DNA from: Limisphaerales bacterium
GTDB taxonomy: Bacteria > Verrucomicrobiota > Verrucomicrobiia > Limisphaerales > AAA164-E04
Assembly: GCA_024761205.1 (NCBI GenBank)
Contig: JAMASS010000022.1
Location: 1-64,000, forward strand
DNA length: 64,000 nucleotides
Direction of reading: 5' to 3'
A program made the position numbers and the translations under genes. Under the pieces are notes generated by a model. That model had not been told where the DNA came from. It did not search any database and worked only from the letters and a program-made list of their open reading frames with translations. Shown here one piece after another: positions 2,684-9,465 of this stretch (within the stretch, counting starts at the first letter, position 1; every line of letters begins with the position of its first letter).

Positions 2684-3814
2684 ATGACGTTAGCGACGAT
2701 ACCGATTGAAACGACCGATCCGGTGAATAGTCGAATCCTCAAGGTTTCCGAGGATCGGATTCAAGGATTTCATCGCGATCCAATCGGGGCTATCAGCGAG
2801 GAGTCAGGTGTGGAGCGAGATGCGGTCGTGGAGCGACTTCAGGCCATGCTACACGGCGGGACGATTCGCCGGATACGCCAGACATTGTTGGCCACGAATT
2901 TGGCGCGAGGCGCGCTGGTTGCGTGGCAGGTGCCGCCCGAGCGATTGGATGAGGCCTTTGGCTACATGTTTGAGAAGGATCCGTTTTCTGGCCATGTGGT
3001 CACTCGATCGACTGACAATGTGACTCCTGGTTCCACGTACAAGCTATGGACGACCCTCAAGGTGCCCGAAGGGTATTCGATGGAAAGGCATTGTGCTTTT
3101 CTGGCTTCAAAGACCGGTGCTGAACATTTTCGACTAATGCCGGCAAAGCGGCTGTTCACCCTTGGTGTCGGGCATGTCCGGCGCCGCGGCCTGCCGCCGG
3201 GAAGCAAGTCGGGGTCGTTGGCTCAGGCGACAGAAGTGGCGCTCGTGAGTTTGACGGACCATGAGTGGAAAATCCTAACAGCATTGAAACGGGAGTGCGC
3301 GCCGGAGGAACTGGAAGGCGACCTTTGGGCGTTGCGGGCAGGCGAAGGCGGCGTCTCGGTTGATGAGTTTTGTGCGGTGGCGAAGAATCTTAATGAGCGC
3401 AAGGTCATCGGGCGATTCTCGACTTTTCTCGAGCACGTGAAGACGTTGAAGACGGGTGAGAAGGTGACTCGATTCAACGCACTGTTCCATTGGGCTGTGC
3501 CTGAGGGCATGGAATTGAAGGCGGGAATGGAGGTCGGGCGGCATCACATCATGACTCACGCCTATTGGCGAGAGGGCGGTCCGGAATTCCGCAATGTGAA
3601 TGTGATGGGGGTGGCGCATGGCACGGACAAAGCGCTGCTGCTCGAACATAAGGCGGCCATTGATTCGCACCTTCAGGCCGAGGGGATACCGGTTACCTAT
3701 ACGAATGTTTTCTGGGGCGGGCGGAGTGAGATCAAGCCTTCGGAGATTTCACCCTTTAGCTATCGCGAGTGGTGCGAGCAAATGGGGGTGGATCCCGATT
3801 CGATGAAGGCGTAA
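2684..3814 (+). CDS. Double-domain AsnC/siroheme-decarboxylase-like (AhbA/AhbB, NirDL) protein
   Basis: A 376-residue protein formed of two Lrp/AsnC-like halves, the arrangement of fused AhbA-AhbB or NirDL proteins. Each half starts with a winged-helix-like segment (about 10-65 and 205-265) followed by an RAM-like domain. The C-terminal half carries family motifs: GRFSTFLEH (about 250), RFNALFHWAVP (about 270) and the HHIMTHAYWREG...FRNVNVMGVAHG block (about 290-320). The N-terminal half is more divergent: the RRFG-like motif is reduced to RRIRQT. Known relatives decarboxylate siroheme in haem or haem d1 synthesis, usually as a pair. No nir or ahb gene is adjacent here, so the substrate is uncertain and a regulatory role is possible. 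Start ATG at 2684. Confidence 0.75.
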   Translation: MTLATIPIETTDPVNSRILKVSEDRIQGFHRDPIGAISEESGVERDAVVERLQAMLHGGTIRRIRQTLLATNLARGALVAWQVPPERLDEAFGYMFEKDPFSGHVVTRSTDNVTPGSTYKLWTTLKVPEGYSMERHCAFLASKTGAEHFRLMPAKRLFTLGVGHVRRRGLPPGSKSGSLAQATEVALVSLTDHEWKILTALKRECAPEELEGDLWALRAGEGGVSVDEFCAVAKNLNERKVIGRFSTFLEHVKTLKTGEKVTRFNALFHWAVPEGMELKAGMEVGRHHIMTHAYWREGGPEFRNVNVMGVAHGTDKALLLEHKAAIDSHLQAEGIPVTYTNVFWGGRSEIKPSEISPFSYREWCEQMGVDPDSMKA

Positions 3815-5730: not shown

Positions 5731-7674
5731 ATGCAGTCAAGTGATTTTCGGAGTTTTAGATTTGTTGTCGGGATTGCGTGGGCGGTGGTTGGCGCGGATA
5801 GTGTTGGTGCAGAAGATCTGGAGGTGTCGATCGTCCGTGAAGGGGATGCTATTCGCGTCGATGTGCCTTCTGCCAAAGGCAAGCGACTGGTCCTCGAGGC
5901 ACAACAGTTTATCAATAATTCTCCCCATTGGAATCCTGTCCTGCGCCTCAATTCTCCAGAAAAGGCCCGGGCATACTACGATCCCGTCTGTCGAGTAAAG
6001 CCCAGTCGTTTCTATCGTTTGCGTGAGGCCCAAAACGGAGATATTCCCTGGGCCGATAACTTTAAGCTCATTGATGTGGATGGGATTGTCCATGAGCTCT
6101 ACTACCACTCACACATTCCGGCGATTATCCTTTTGGCGGTTGGTGAATCGCTCAGTTCTCTCGAACCGATGTTGCCGGAAATCCAAGACTTGAAGGCGAA
6201 TTACGGTGACGACGTCATGTTTTGGGCGATTCATTGCCAGCCGGATGCTGACCGAGACGCGTTAAAGGCGGAGGCTGACGCACTGGGAATCGATTTTCCC
6301 GTGCTCCTGGATCCGAGCCAGGTGGTCACGCGAAATCTAACGCCAAGCATCTTTCCGGAAGTTTTTGCGGTCCGTTCGTTAGATTGGACGTTGTTTTACA
6401 AGGGGGCGTTGAGCTCTGAGGTGAGCACTGGAGCGGGGAGTATTCGTAATCCGTATCTTCGCAACGCATTACTGCAACACTTTGCCAATGAACCGATCGA
6501 TGTGGAGCTTGCCGAAGGAACCGGAGATTCAGCGAATCTGCCCGATCTAGGTCCAATTTCTTATGCTGACGATATCGCGCCCATTCTTGCGAAACACTGC
6601 ACCCGTTGTCATAGCGAGGGGAACATAGGTCCGTTTGCGATAGATGGGTACGACGCCGTTCTTCAGAATTCCCTTCTCATAAAGCACCAAGTCATGTCGG
6701 GTGAAATGCCCCCGTGGCATGCCGATCCACGATACGGTCGTTTCATCAACGAAACGAAGTTGTCCGATGAGGAAAAAGCCTTGCTGATCGAGTGGATTAA
6801 CGGGGGAGCGGAACGGGGTGAAGGTGAAGATCCTCTGCTGACCGCATCGTTTCCGGCCCCGACCGAATGGGTGCTGGGTGATCCGGATTATGTCGTTGAG
6901 ATTCCGAGACAAGAAATTCCCGCTGACGGGGTGATTGACTATCGGTATCTGGTCGTCAAAAGTCCGGTGCCCGAAGACGCCTGGTTGAAAGCTGCGGTGG
7001 TCATTCCCGGTGATCCGGAAGTTGTTCATCACAGTCTCGTCTTTATGATCTCTGATCCGACGGATCTGTTTGCCGTTCAGTTCGGGCTGGCCGGTTTTTA
7101 TGCCGGCTATGTTCCCGGCTTGGATGCCGAGTTCTTTCCGGAAGGCACCGGCAAGTTCCTGCCGAAGGGTAGCGAATTTGTTTTCCAGCAGCATTACACT
7201 CCCAATGGGAAAACTACCAGTGATGTGACGAAGCTTGGGCTTTATTTGGCAGAGAAGAAACCTGAGAGGCAGTTGTTGACCACGGCGGCGTTTACTACCG
7301 ATATTAACATTCCGGCGAACCATCGGGAGTATCAGAGATCGGCCACAGCGGACATTCAGGAAGATAGTTGGCTTTTCGAGATGAGCCCTCATATGCACTA
7401 CCGGGGCAAGCGTTTTCAGTTTGAGGCCCACTACCCGGATGGAACGTCGGAGATCCTTCTGTCTACGCCTGATTATCATTTTGATTGGCAACGGATGTAT
7501 CGTTTGACCACACCCAAATTTCTGCCTCGGGGCACCCGCATTCGCGTCTCTGGAGTCTTTGACAATTCGCCTCAGAATCGTTGGAATCCAGATCCCAATC
7601 AACAGGTCGGCTTCGGCGAACAAAGCTGGGATGAGATGTTCATCGGTTATTTCAATTTCGCGGTGACGAATTAG
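5731..7674 (+). CDS. Redoxin / cytochrome c / copper type II monooxygenase-like fusion protein
   Basis: An exported protein of 647 residues. After a signal peptide (about 1-27) comes a module ending in PSRFYRLRE (about 30-98), shared with other proteins in this window. Residues about 105-245 form a thioredoxin-fold redoxin-like domain, but the usual peroxidatic Cys segment is replaced by VGESLSSLEPML, so it is probably not redox-active. A cytochrome c motif follows: C290-T-R-C293-H294, with a PPWHADP stretch after it. The last third resembles the peptidylglycine monooxygenase copper fold. It has a His pair at 433-434, His488, an HMH motif at 554-556 and Met636, matching the CuH and CuM ligand pattern. 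Such fusions are common in Planctomycetota and Verrucomicrobiota; the substrate is unknown. It stands alone, with about 480 bases upstream. Confidence 0.85.
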   Translation: MQSSDFRSFRFVVGIAWAVVGADSVGAEDLEVSIVREGDAIRVDVPSAKGKRLVLEAQQFINNSPHWNPVLRLNSPEKARAYYDPVCRVKPSRFYRLREAQNGDIPWADNFKLIDVDGIVHELYYHSHIPAIILLAVGESLSSLEPMLPEIQDLKANYGDDVMFWAIHCQPDADRDALKAEADALGIDFPVLLDPSQVVTRNLTPSIFPEVFAVRSLDWTLFYKGALSSEVSTGAGSIRNPYLRNALLQHFANEPIDVELAEGTGDSANLPDLGPISYADDIAPILAKHCTRCHSEGNIGPFAIDGYDAVLQNSLLIKHQVMSGEMPPWHADPRYGRFINETKLSDEEKALLIEWINGGAERGEGEDPLLTASFPAPTEWVLGDPDYVVEIPRQEIPADGVIDYRYLVVKSPVPEDAWLKAAVVIPGDPEVVHHSLVFMISDPTDLFAVQFGLAGFYAGYVPGLDAEFFPEGTGKFLPKGSEFVFQQHYTPNGKTTSDVTKLGLYLAEKKPERQLLTTAAFTTDINIPANHREYQRSATADIQEDSWLFEMSPHMHYRGKRFQFEAHYPDGTSEILLSTPDYHFDWQRMYRLTTPKFLPRGTRIRVSGVFDNSPQNRWNPDPNQQVGFGEQSWDEMFIGYFNFAVTN

Positions 7675-8229
7675 CAAAGCTCGGAGATCTCAGGCTGAAA
7701 CGGGTACGTTGTGCGAAGATTAGGGAACCGCTAAGCCAGTATAGTATCCGGCGTTCAGGCTCAAGGCGCAAAATTGGCGGCGCCTCGGAAGGCTGGCATG
7801 CAGAGTCCGGGGCGCTTGCAAGCCGTACGGCCTGTCGCGCCTCTCTTTCGTTGTTCGTCCTGTCAATGGCAAGCCCTTCGCCGAATGCTGTGCAACCGCT
7901 TCAAGTCTCGCCCCACCTTAAGCAGGCCCTGATCCTTCCAATCTGCGGTGGCAAAGTTTTTACTTGCGCGCGAGCTCTTTCGGGTTTACGGGTAACTCGG
8001 CTCTTGAGGAAAGCTAATAAGTCGTTTCTAACCTTTCTCGTGGAATGGTCCCATTCCATTGCAAATCTGGTTGGCAGCGATTTTAGACAATCCCCCTGAG
8101 TTGGGATTGCAGTTGTTGACGGATCAGGTTGCGAGTTTCCGCTGAATGGAATTTACCACCTTCGTTCGAACAGAGTCAAAAAGTCGTCCGGCCGTCTATT
8201 GATCGGTTAAGCATGGGATATTGTTGTAT
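7675..8229. other. Intergenic region, no gene seen
   Basis: About 555 bases without a supported gene. Short frames (for example 7851-8099) show no family signature. No tRNA or other structural RNA was recognised, although a non-coding RNA cannot be excluded by eye. Confidence 0.45.
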
Positions 8230-9465
8230 ATGGAATTATTCAAAGAATTGGATCTCGCTGACAACCTTCAGCGCGCAGTCGAAGCTTGTGGCTTCGAAAA
8301 ACCCACTCCCATTCAAAGGGAATCCATCCCTGCGATCTTAGCGGGCAAGGATATTTTGGCTTCTGCACAAACCGGCACTGGCAAAACAGCTTCGTTTGTC
8401 CTTCCCGCCATGCAAAAGATGCTATTGGTTCCGAGGCATGGCGGGAATGGGCCGAGGGTTCTGATACTCACGCCAACTCGGGAGTTGGCGGCTCAGGTTA
8501 ATGCCCATATTCGCGACTTAGGTCAATTTTGCAAATTCACCAACGGAAGTGTGATCGGAGGTATGGCCTACCCACCACAGATACGATTACTCCAAAAAAA
8601 GCTCGATATATTGGTGGCGACACCTGGTCGGCTGATGGATCACATGGAGAAGGGACGCGTCAACTATTCTAGTCTGGACATCTTCGTTTTGGACGAAGCC
8701 GATCGGATGTTAGACCTAGGCTTCATTGGGGACATTCGCAACATTGCCTCGAAACTGCCTAAAAAACGGCAAACCTTGCTGTTTTCGGCGACCTTGGAAG
8801 GCAAGGTGCTCACCATTGCTCACGATCTCTTGAAGGACCCCGTGACGATCCAACTCACATCGAACACAGTGAAACATGAGTTGATTCGGCAAAAGGTGTA
8901 CCATGCGGACAATCTCATCCACAAGCACCGCCTACTCGACAGCTGCTTGAAGCGCGACGAACTGACACAGGCTCTTGTTTTCACGGCGACCAAGAGAACG
9001 GCGGATCGATTGGCGAGCATGCTGTCGGCTCAAGGTCACGACTCCGCTCCGCTACACGGCGATTTATCGCAGGGCGCGCGCAAGAAAACGATGAACCGAA
9101 TGAAGCAAGGTAAGTTGCGTATCTTGGTGGCGACCGACGTGGCGGCACGTGGATTGGATATCAAGGGAATCAGTCATGTCATCAATTTCGATCTCCCAAA
9201 TGTGGCGGAAGATTACATTCACCGAATTGGCCGAACCGGGCGAGCGGGTGAAAATGGTACCGCCATCTCACTCGTGTCACCGGAAGACTGGGGCAAGTTG
9301 CGTGAGATCGAGCGTCTCACGGGCATGTTGGTTGAGCGGAGCGTCGTTCTCGGTTTGGAGCCGGAGAAAGCCAGCCCGGAATTTCAGCCTCAGAAGGCTC
9401 GCTCTTCCGCATTCCCACGTTTCGGTCGCCGAAAACGTCGATTCGGTTCTCGTCTTAGACGGTAG
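8230..9465 (+). CDS. DEAD-box ATP-dependent RNA helicase (RhlE-like)
   Basis: An RNA helicase of 411 residues that unwinds RNA duplexes with ATP. ATG at 8230 is preferred over two upstream TTG codons because MELFKELDL starts the usual domain. All core motifs are present in order: Q motif GFEKPTPIQ, Walker A AQTGTGKT, PTRELAAQ, TPGR, DEAD box (LDEADRMLDLGF), FSATL, then in the second RecA domain TATKRTADR, VATDVAARGLDI and HRIGRTGRAG. The C-terminal tail is short and basic (RRKRRFGSRLRR), suited to RNA binding. The RNase R gene begins 57 bases downstream on the same strand, so the two probably form an operon for turnover of structured RNA. Confidence 0.95.
   Translation: MELFKELDLADNLQRAVEACGFEKPTPIQRESIPAILAGKDILASAQTGTGKTASFVLPAMQKMLLVPRHGGNGPRVLILTPTRELAAQVNAHIRDLGQFCKFTNGSVIGGMAYPPQIRLLQKKLDILVATPGRLMDHMEKGRVNYSSLDIFVLDEADRMLDLGFIGDIRNIASKLPKKRQTLLFSATLEGKVLTIAHDLLKDPVTIQLTSNTVKHELIRQKVYHADNLIHKHRLLDSCLKRDELTQALVFTATKRTADRLASMLSAQGHDSAPLHGDLSQGARKKTMNRMKQGKLRILVATDVAARGLDIKGISHVINFDLPNVAEDYIHRIGRTGRAGENGTAISLVSPEDWGKLREIERLTGMLVERSVVLGLEPEKASPEFQPQKARSSAFPRFGRRKRRFGSRLRR

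Follow-up and report, generated by a model that had tools for sequence, protein, structure and literature searches.

The open reading frame (ORF) at positions 5731 to 7674 of the window, the stretch of 64,000 nucleotides that was analyzed, joins a redoxin fold to a c-type cytochrome and a copper monooxygenase-like part. The question raised by this locus is what a redoxin domain lacking its catalytic cysteine is doing in such a protein, and what the haem beside it does for the copper. The first-pass annotation had read the redoxin part as possibly structural, with electrons passing from haem to copper.

The ORF lies on the forward strand, is 647 amino acids in length, begins with ATG, and has no inner stop. 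All residue numbers that had been assigned to it (C290, C293, H294, H433, H434, H488, H554, H556, and M636) are correct. Its parts are listed in Table 1 and include three features beyond the earlier description, namely the candidate distal haem ligand M326, the N-terminal beta domain (about residues 31–98), labeled here the FYR domain, and the linker cysteine of relatives. Pfam matches to the query are weak, all of them below cut-off (Haem_bd, 2.4e-5; Cytochrome_CBB3, 0.002; Cu2_monoox_C, 0.041; AhpC-TSA, 0.12), and the protein has no match in NCBIfam. An AlphaFold2 model of residues 28–647, without metals and based on 36 aligned sequences, has a pLDDT of 90.3 and a pTM of 0.87; the fold search with this model bears little on the cytochrome and N-terminal parts. 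The nearest relatives are found in three genomes of the query's genus, are 73, 68, and 63% identical over about residues 28–646, and have open frames.

Table 1. Parts of the haem-copper protein encoded in the window, with related and neighboring frames. Positions are those of the window unless a locus is named.
Feature	Position	Strand	Basis
Signal-peptide-like N-terminus, residues 1–27	5731..5811	+	Sequence; putative cleavage after VGA, by eye
N-terminal beta domain, residues 31–98, end RFYRLR	5821..6024	+	Family alignments; strands in predicted models
Redoxin-fold domain without catalytic Cys, residues 108–250	6052..6480	+	Family alignment; fold match to 2ywo, Z 19.8
L141 at former redoxin Cys site	6151–6153	+	Family alignment
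Linker, residues 251–276, second-Cys region of Cys-type relatives; query reads EGTGDSANL	6481..6558	+	Alignment
c-type cytochrome domain, residues 277–372; CTRCH 290–294, Met326 in MPPWHAD	6559..6846	+	Pfam; alignment
PHM/DBH-like two-domain copper part, residues 373–647; H433 H434 H488 and H554 H556 M636	6847..7671	+	Model fold match; profile; alignment
AsnC-like frame upstream	2684–3814	+	Sub-cut-off match to siroheme decarboxylase NirDL-like HTH
DEAD-box helicase downstream	8221–9465		
DEAD-box helicase, same genus	L005:2504–3748		
FG-GAP/UnbV_ASPIC-like frames	L008:2294–4156; L016:7871–9727		Pfam
FG-GAP/UnbV_ASPIC-like frames	L058:3370–4860; L066:1460–2956		Profile made from the L008 and L016 frames
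Cys-less ORF of 1101 aa inside the clade, without recognizable RFYR domain	L088:1267–4569		

The redoxin part of the model is predicted with high confidence and matches the Thermus redoxin 2ywo with a Z score of 19.8. It has no catalytic cysteine, as had been described. The segment VGESLSSLEPML occupies residues 137–148, with L141 where Cys-type relatives carry the cysteine of an xxCP motif, and the query has four cysteines in all, C87, C169, and the haem-motif C290 and C293. A paralogue in the same genome (contig C7) is 34% identical, contains the motif TECPL, and has clear AhpC-TSA and Redoxin matches. The paralogue's site cysteine pairs with the first cysteine of ResA (CPHC variant), and the paralogue's two conserved cysteines each have a cysteine counterpart in 2cvb, 2ywi, and 3u5r. 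Copper loading by the redoxin part in the manner of SCO was considered and rejected, as, by eye, neither His nor Met is conserved next to the cysteine in the Cys-type consensus.

The comparison of redoxin active sites across the family, as the first-pass annotation had proposed, found both Cys-type and Cys-less members. The first set of 85 rows has 56 with the site cysteine, 28 without it, and one that is unreadable (L058, X). The enlarged set has 137 rows, query included, each an ORF spanning the redoxin to the copper part, with 13 partial ORFs and one place with inner stops (G249:C72) left out. In this set the site cysteine is kept in 78 rows, absent in 58, and unreadable in one. The query itself served as the search probe, in one search at E 1e-120 with at most three candidates scored per genome, so the ratio of 78:58 is not a prevalence. 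No conserved replacement for the site cysteine was seen by eye among the Cys-less rows of the family alignment.

Most Cys-type rows have a second cysteine, mostly in the form GCxI, located after the redoxin domain and ahead of the haem motif. Defined as any cysteine in the segment aligned to residues 252–287, this linker cysteine is present in 72 of the 78 rows with the site cysteine and in 2 of the 58 without it; the latter two (L006 and L007) show a different context, MDCG. Because the site and linker cysteines are present or absent jointly, what was lost is a two-cysteine system and not one cysteine. Six rows have the site cysteine without the linker cysteine (L101, L147, L014, L060, L155, and L162). 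The last four belong to the loss-bearing clade, in which L155 and L162 are grouped with two Cys-less rows, L064 and L171; this suggests that the linker cysteine can be lost first. Only three independent pairs for joint change are well supported, of which on average 1.9 agree, 0 oppose, and 1.1 show no difference, too few for significance. Eight stand-alone redoxin ORFs were also identified in the loci, with both cysteines in 8/8 by eye. Seven of them (L074, L075, L076, L077, L193, L194, and L195) adjoin a cytochrome+copper ORF, which is a split form of the fusion.

A tree of the 137 rows was constructed using the cytochrome and copper parts only. All 58 Cys-less rows are found within one clade of 75 rows (SH-aLRT 99), the rest of which is made up of the unreadable row and 16 that bear the cysteine. 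Parsimony gives seven losses of the site cysteine, all inside this clade and none outside it, a count made on a quick tree that has 34 weak branches among its 134 inner ones. Of the 56.8 units of total tree length, 27.2 (48%) belong to this clade; by our own arithmetic, and supposing equal rates and independence, all seven losses would fall within it with a probability of about 0.006. The alternative that the Cys-less rows form one clade is rejected with a p-AU of 1.6e-5 (56 versus 20 rows, made up of 72 of the 75 clade rows and 4 outside rows). Judged from the sequences, the thiols seem to have been lost repeatedly within one clade, with the haem-copper residues conserved.

The redoxin/copper rate ratio is 1.46 for Cys-less rows, 1.34 for clade rows with the cysteine kept, and 1.29 outside the clade. 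The redoxin/cytochrome ratio for the same three groups is 1.54, 1.61, and 1.17, respectively; the rows used were 48 of 57, 15 of 16, and 60 of 62. The idea that the redoxin domain decayed once its cysteine was gone was considered and set aside: compared with Cys-bearing members of the same clade, the effect is small when scaled to the copper part and disappears when scaled to the cytochrome. Pairwise identity drops more. In the 85-row set, the mean for the redoxin domain is 0.35 among 25 Cys-less rows, 0.55 among 7 Cys-bearing clade rows, and 0.35 among 49 others, and by this drop some relaxation after the loss is likely. The constraint kept on the domain suggests a role of some kind. A structural role, as first proposed, is supported by the confident fold, the lack of a conserved residue replacing the cysteine, the loss of the second cysteine as well, and the small rise in rate.

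The N-terminal beta domain is present in 74 of the 75 clade rows, two of which (L016 and L187) were assigned by hand; the exception is the Cys-less L088. The domain has no PDB match under E 0.001, and a 79-residue model has a pLDDT of 72. Cysteines occur in Cys-less relatives at query positions 38, 83, 87, and 231 of the family alignment. In 13 of 57 Cys-less rows, positions 38 and 231 are both cysteine, which may point to a disulfide between domains.

The CxxCH motif (C290, C293, and H294) and M326, the candidate distal ligand, are each kept in 137/137 rows. All ten metal-site residues (CxxCH, Met, HHH, and HHM) are complete in 134 rows, including the query. The three exceptions are a gap at M636 in L017 and L184, and HPM in L174, with Pro for the second CuM His. 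The query genome contains two matches to PF01578 (cytochrome c assembly) and two to COX1, which make haem loading and a respiratory chain plausible. Electron flow from haem to copper agrees with the conservation of the residues at the haem and copper sites, and with the existence of cytochrome+copper relatives in which the match lacks a redoxin part. The first-pass interpretation is partly supported, namely for the structural redoxin part, and is extended to a lost two-cysteine system; its proposed electron flow is plausible.

Model residues 358–620 match residues 62–325 of PHM (5wja_D) with a Z score of 21.8 and an rmsd of 2.4 over 246 residues, and the copper part matches DBH with a Z score of 21.7. 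A profile search with the family retrieves DBH (E 6e-8) and PHM (E about 2e-4), and the HH, HY, and HxH motifs line up. The query's copper part has the two-domain PHM/DBH fold by model fold match, and the ligand pattern HH...H / HxH...M by sequence, profile, and family alignment. M636 is placed at PHM 314 by arithmetic from the ends of the match range only. The query scores 13.8 bits against the Cu2_monoox_C cut-off of 23 and is for this reason termed PHM/DBH-like and not a member. In our reading of the profile alignment, S552 is found where PHM has R240, the residue that binds the peptide carboxylate; there is accordingly no sign of peptide amidation, which speaks against an amidating enzyme of the known kind. 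By fold and ligands, the copper part is probably a PHM/DBH-like center of an O2-using monooxygenase.

No operon partner of the window gene is evident in its neighborhood. The AsnC-like frame lies upstream of the gene, which is followed by a DEAD-box helicase; the helicase is likewise downstream in L005, and the L018 locus also has one. An FG-GAP/UnbV_ASPIC-like (CRTAC1-like) frame is located 3–40 bases downstream in four genomes of the query's family (G004–G007; loci L008/L052, L016/L062, L058, and L066) and is absent beside the query. Proteins of this kind are located 33–3050 bases away in L006, L007, L110, and L118. One conserved-neighbor cluster was lumped by Ig repeats. Seven acidobacterial loci (L019, L020, L023, L025, L027, L038, and L043) contain at least two cytochrome+copper ORFs each, with a match that has no redoxin part.

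The explanation favored here, which we consider fairly probable, is that of an exported PHM/DBH-like dicopper protein whose own c-haem is the point of electron entry and whose redoxin fold survives as a scaffold. With copper and haem loaded, the CuH-like H433/H434/H488 and the CuM-like H554/H556/M636 would do oxygen chemistry, most likely the hydroxylation of a substrate. PHM and DBH take electrons from ascorbate. The fused c-haem, held by CxxCH and probably Met326, would fill that role by taking single electrons from a periplasmic donor and passing them to the copper part. The redoxin fold would descend from a two-cysteine redoxin, with the site cysteine and a C-terminal or linker cysteine before the cytochrome. 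In Cys-type members, the pair of thiols preceding the haem may constitute a redox gate. This gate is mostly gone in the query's clade, where both thiols were lost and the fold would stay as a scaffold or docking surface. The match to acidobacterial relatives begins at the cytochrome, which suggests that the redoxin is an add-on. A bolder version, rather doubtful in our judgment, is that Verrucomicrobia have a family of PHM-type monooxygenases that are wired to haem and independent of ascorbate. In that version, a two-cysteine redoxin would once have acted next to the haem as a redox gate, and the one lineage to acquire an N-terminal beta domain would have discarded it about seven times; donor docking may then have passed to that domain.

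Electrons could also flow in reverse, with the copper part oxidizing a substrate and the c-haem feeding the respiratory chain, as in a dehydrogenase. The invariant haem (137/137) and the two COX1 matches would suit this arrangement, as would the seven neighboring window ORFs scanned (three without any match), none of which is of an electron-transfer family. PHM and DBH, both O2-using monooxygenases, are however by far the nearest fold matches of the copper part, and we regard reverse flow as unlikely. It is quite unlikely that the copper sites serve binding, storage, or sensing, as in an extracytoplasmic redox or metal sensor with secreted partners. The large secreted-type FG-GAP/UnbV_ASPIC frame 3–40 bases after the haem-copper frame in four genomes would fit such a sensor, but six catalytic-type ligands, including the CuM Met, are kept in 134/137 rows, and storage would not need them.

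Redoxin chemistry might instead be kept through a relocated thiol such as C87 or C169. A cysteine of the N-terminal domain is present in 51 of 55 rows without the site cysteine and in 3 of 16 with it (71 readable of 74). Its position varies, though (38 in 37 of 71 rows, 87 in 16, and 83 in 4), it needs only three changes on the tree, and it changes with the site cysteine in an average of 0.1 of three well-supported independent pairs, a comparison of low power. Four Cys-less rows have no cysteine in the N-terminal domain, and C169 is present in only 3 of 57. A relocated thiol (C87, C38, or C169) is therefore improbable and was dropped as the main reading. That the ORF is an artefact, a frameshift, or a pseudogene has a negligible chance of being true. 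A few relatives from draft genomes look frameshifted (L016 and L187), and nothing in the query supports this; its own frame is open, as are those of the 63–73% identical relatives in three genomes of the same genus. As the nearest relatives are also Cys-less with the frame kept, and 58 of 136 readable rows are Cys-less, the loss in the query is not a matter of chance or gene decay.

Among the matches listed in the open-licence literature, no description of the redoxin+cytochrome+copper architecture was found. The retrieved portions of one listed paper, on planctomycete-specific cytochrome c domains, contain no hit for monooxygenase, redoxin, or copper (PMC5615132). As far as sequence comparison indicates, each part is of a known kind, and the thiol-less haem-copper combination is not described among those matches. 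A bacterial relative of PHM and DBH that carries its own c-haem would reveal a different power source for such copper chemistry. The family also offers a natural series of both-thiol, one-thiol, and no-thiol forms on one scaffold, with haem and copper fixed, in which the role of the redoxin is directly testable.

The query shares its redoxin fold with 2cvb/2ywo, 2ywi, and 3u5r (Thermus, Geobacillus, and Sinorhizobium; Z 18.5–19.8). The Cys-type paralogue hits 3u5r (E 3e-23), and the CP cysteine and the C-terminal GCxI cysteine are both aligned there, while the query, unlike the thiol redoxins (2cvb/ResA-like), has neither the nucleophilic nor the GCxI cysteine. With PHM and DBH it has in common the two-domain fold and the HH...H / HxH...M pattern, and differs in carrying a c-type haem domain and a redoxin fold on the same chain; its copper part contains no cysteine. 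Acidobacterial cytochrome+copper proteins (e.g., L020–L024) share the cytochrome and copper parts at about 30–40% identity but have no fused redoxin or N-terminal beta domain. In cellobiose dehydrogenase with LPMO, a haem domain feeds a copper monooxygenase. The idea is common to that system and the query, whereas the folds are unrelated, the haem is b-type, and the proteins are separate.
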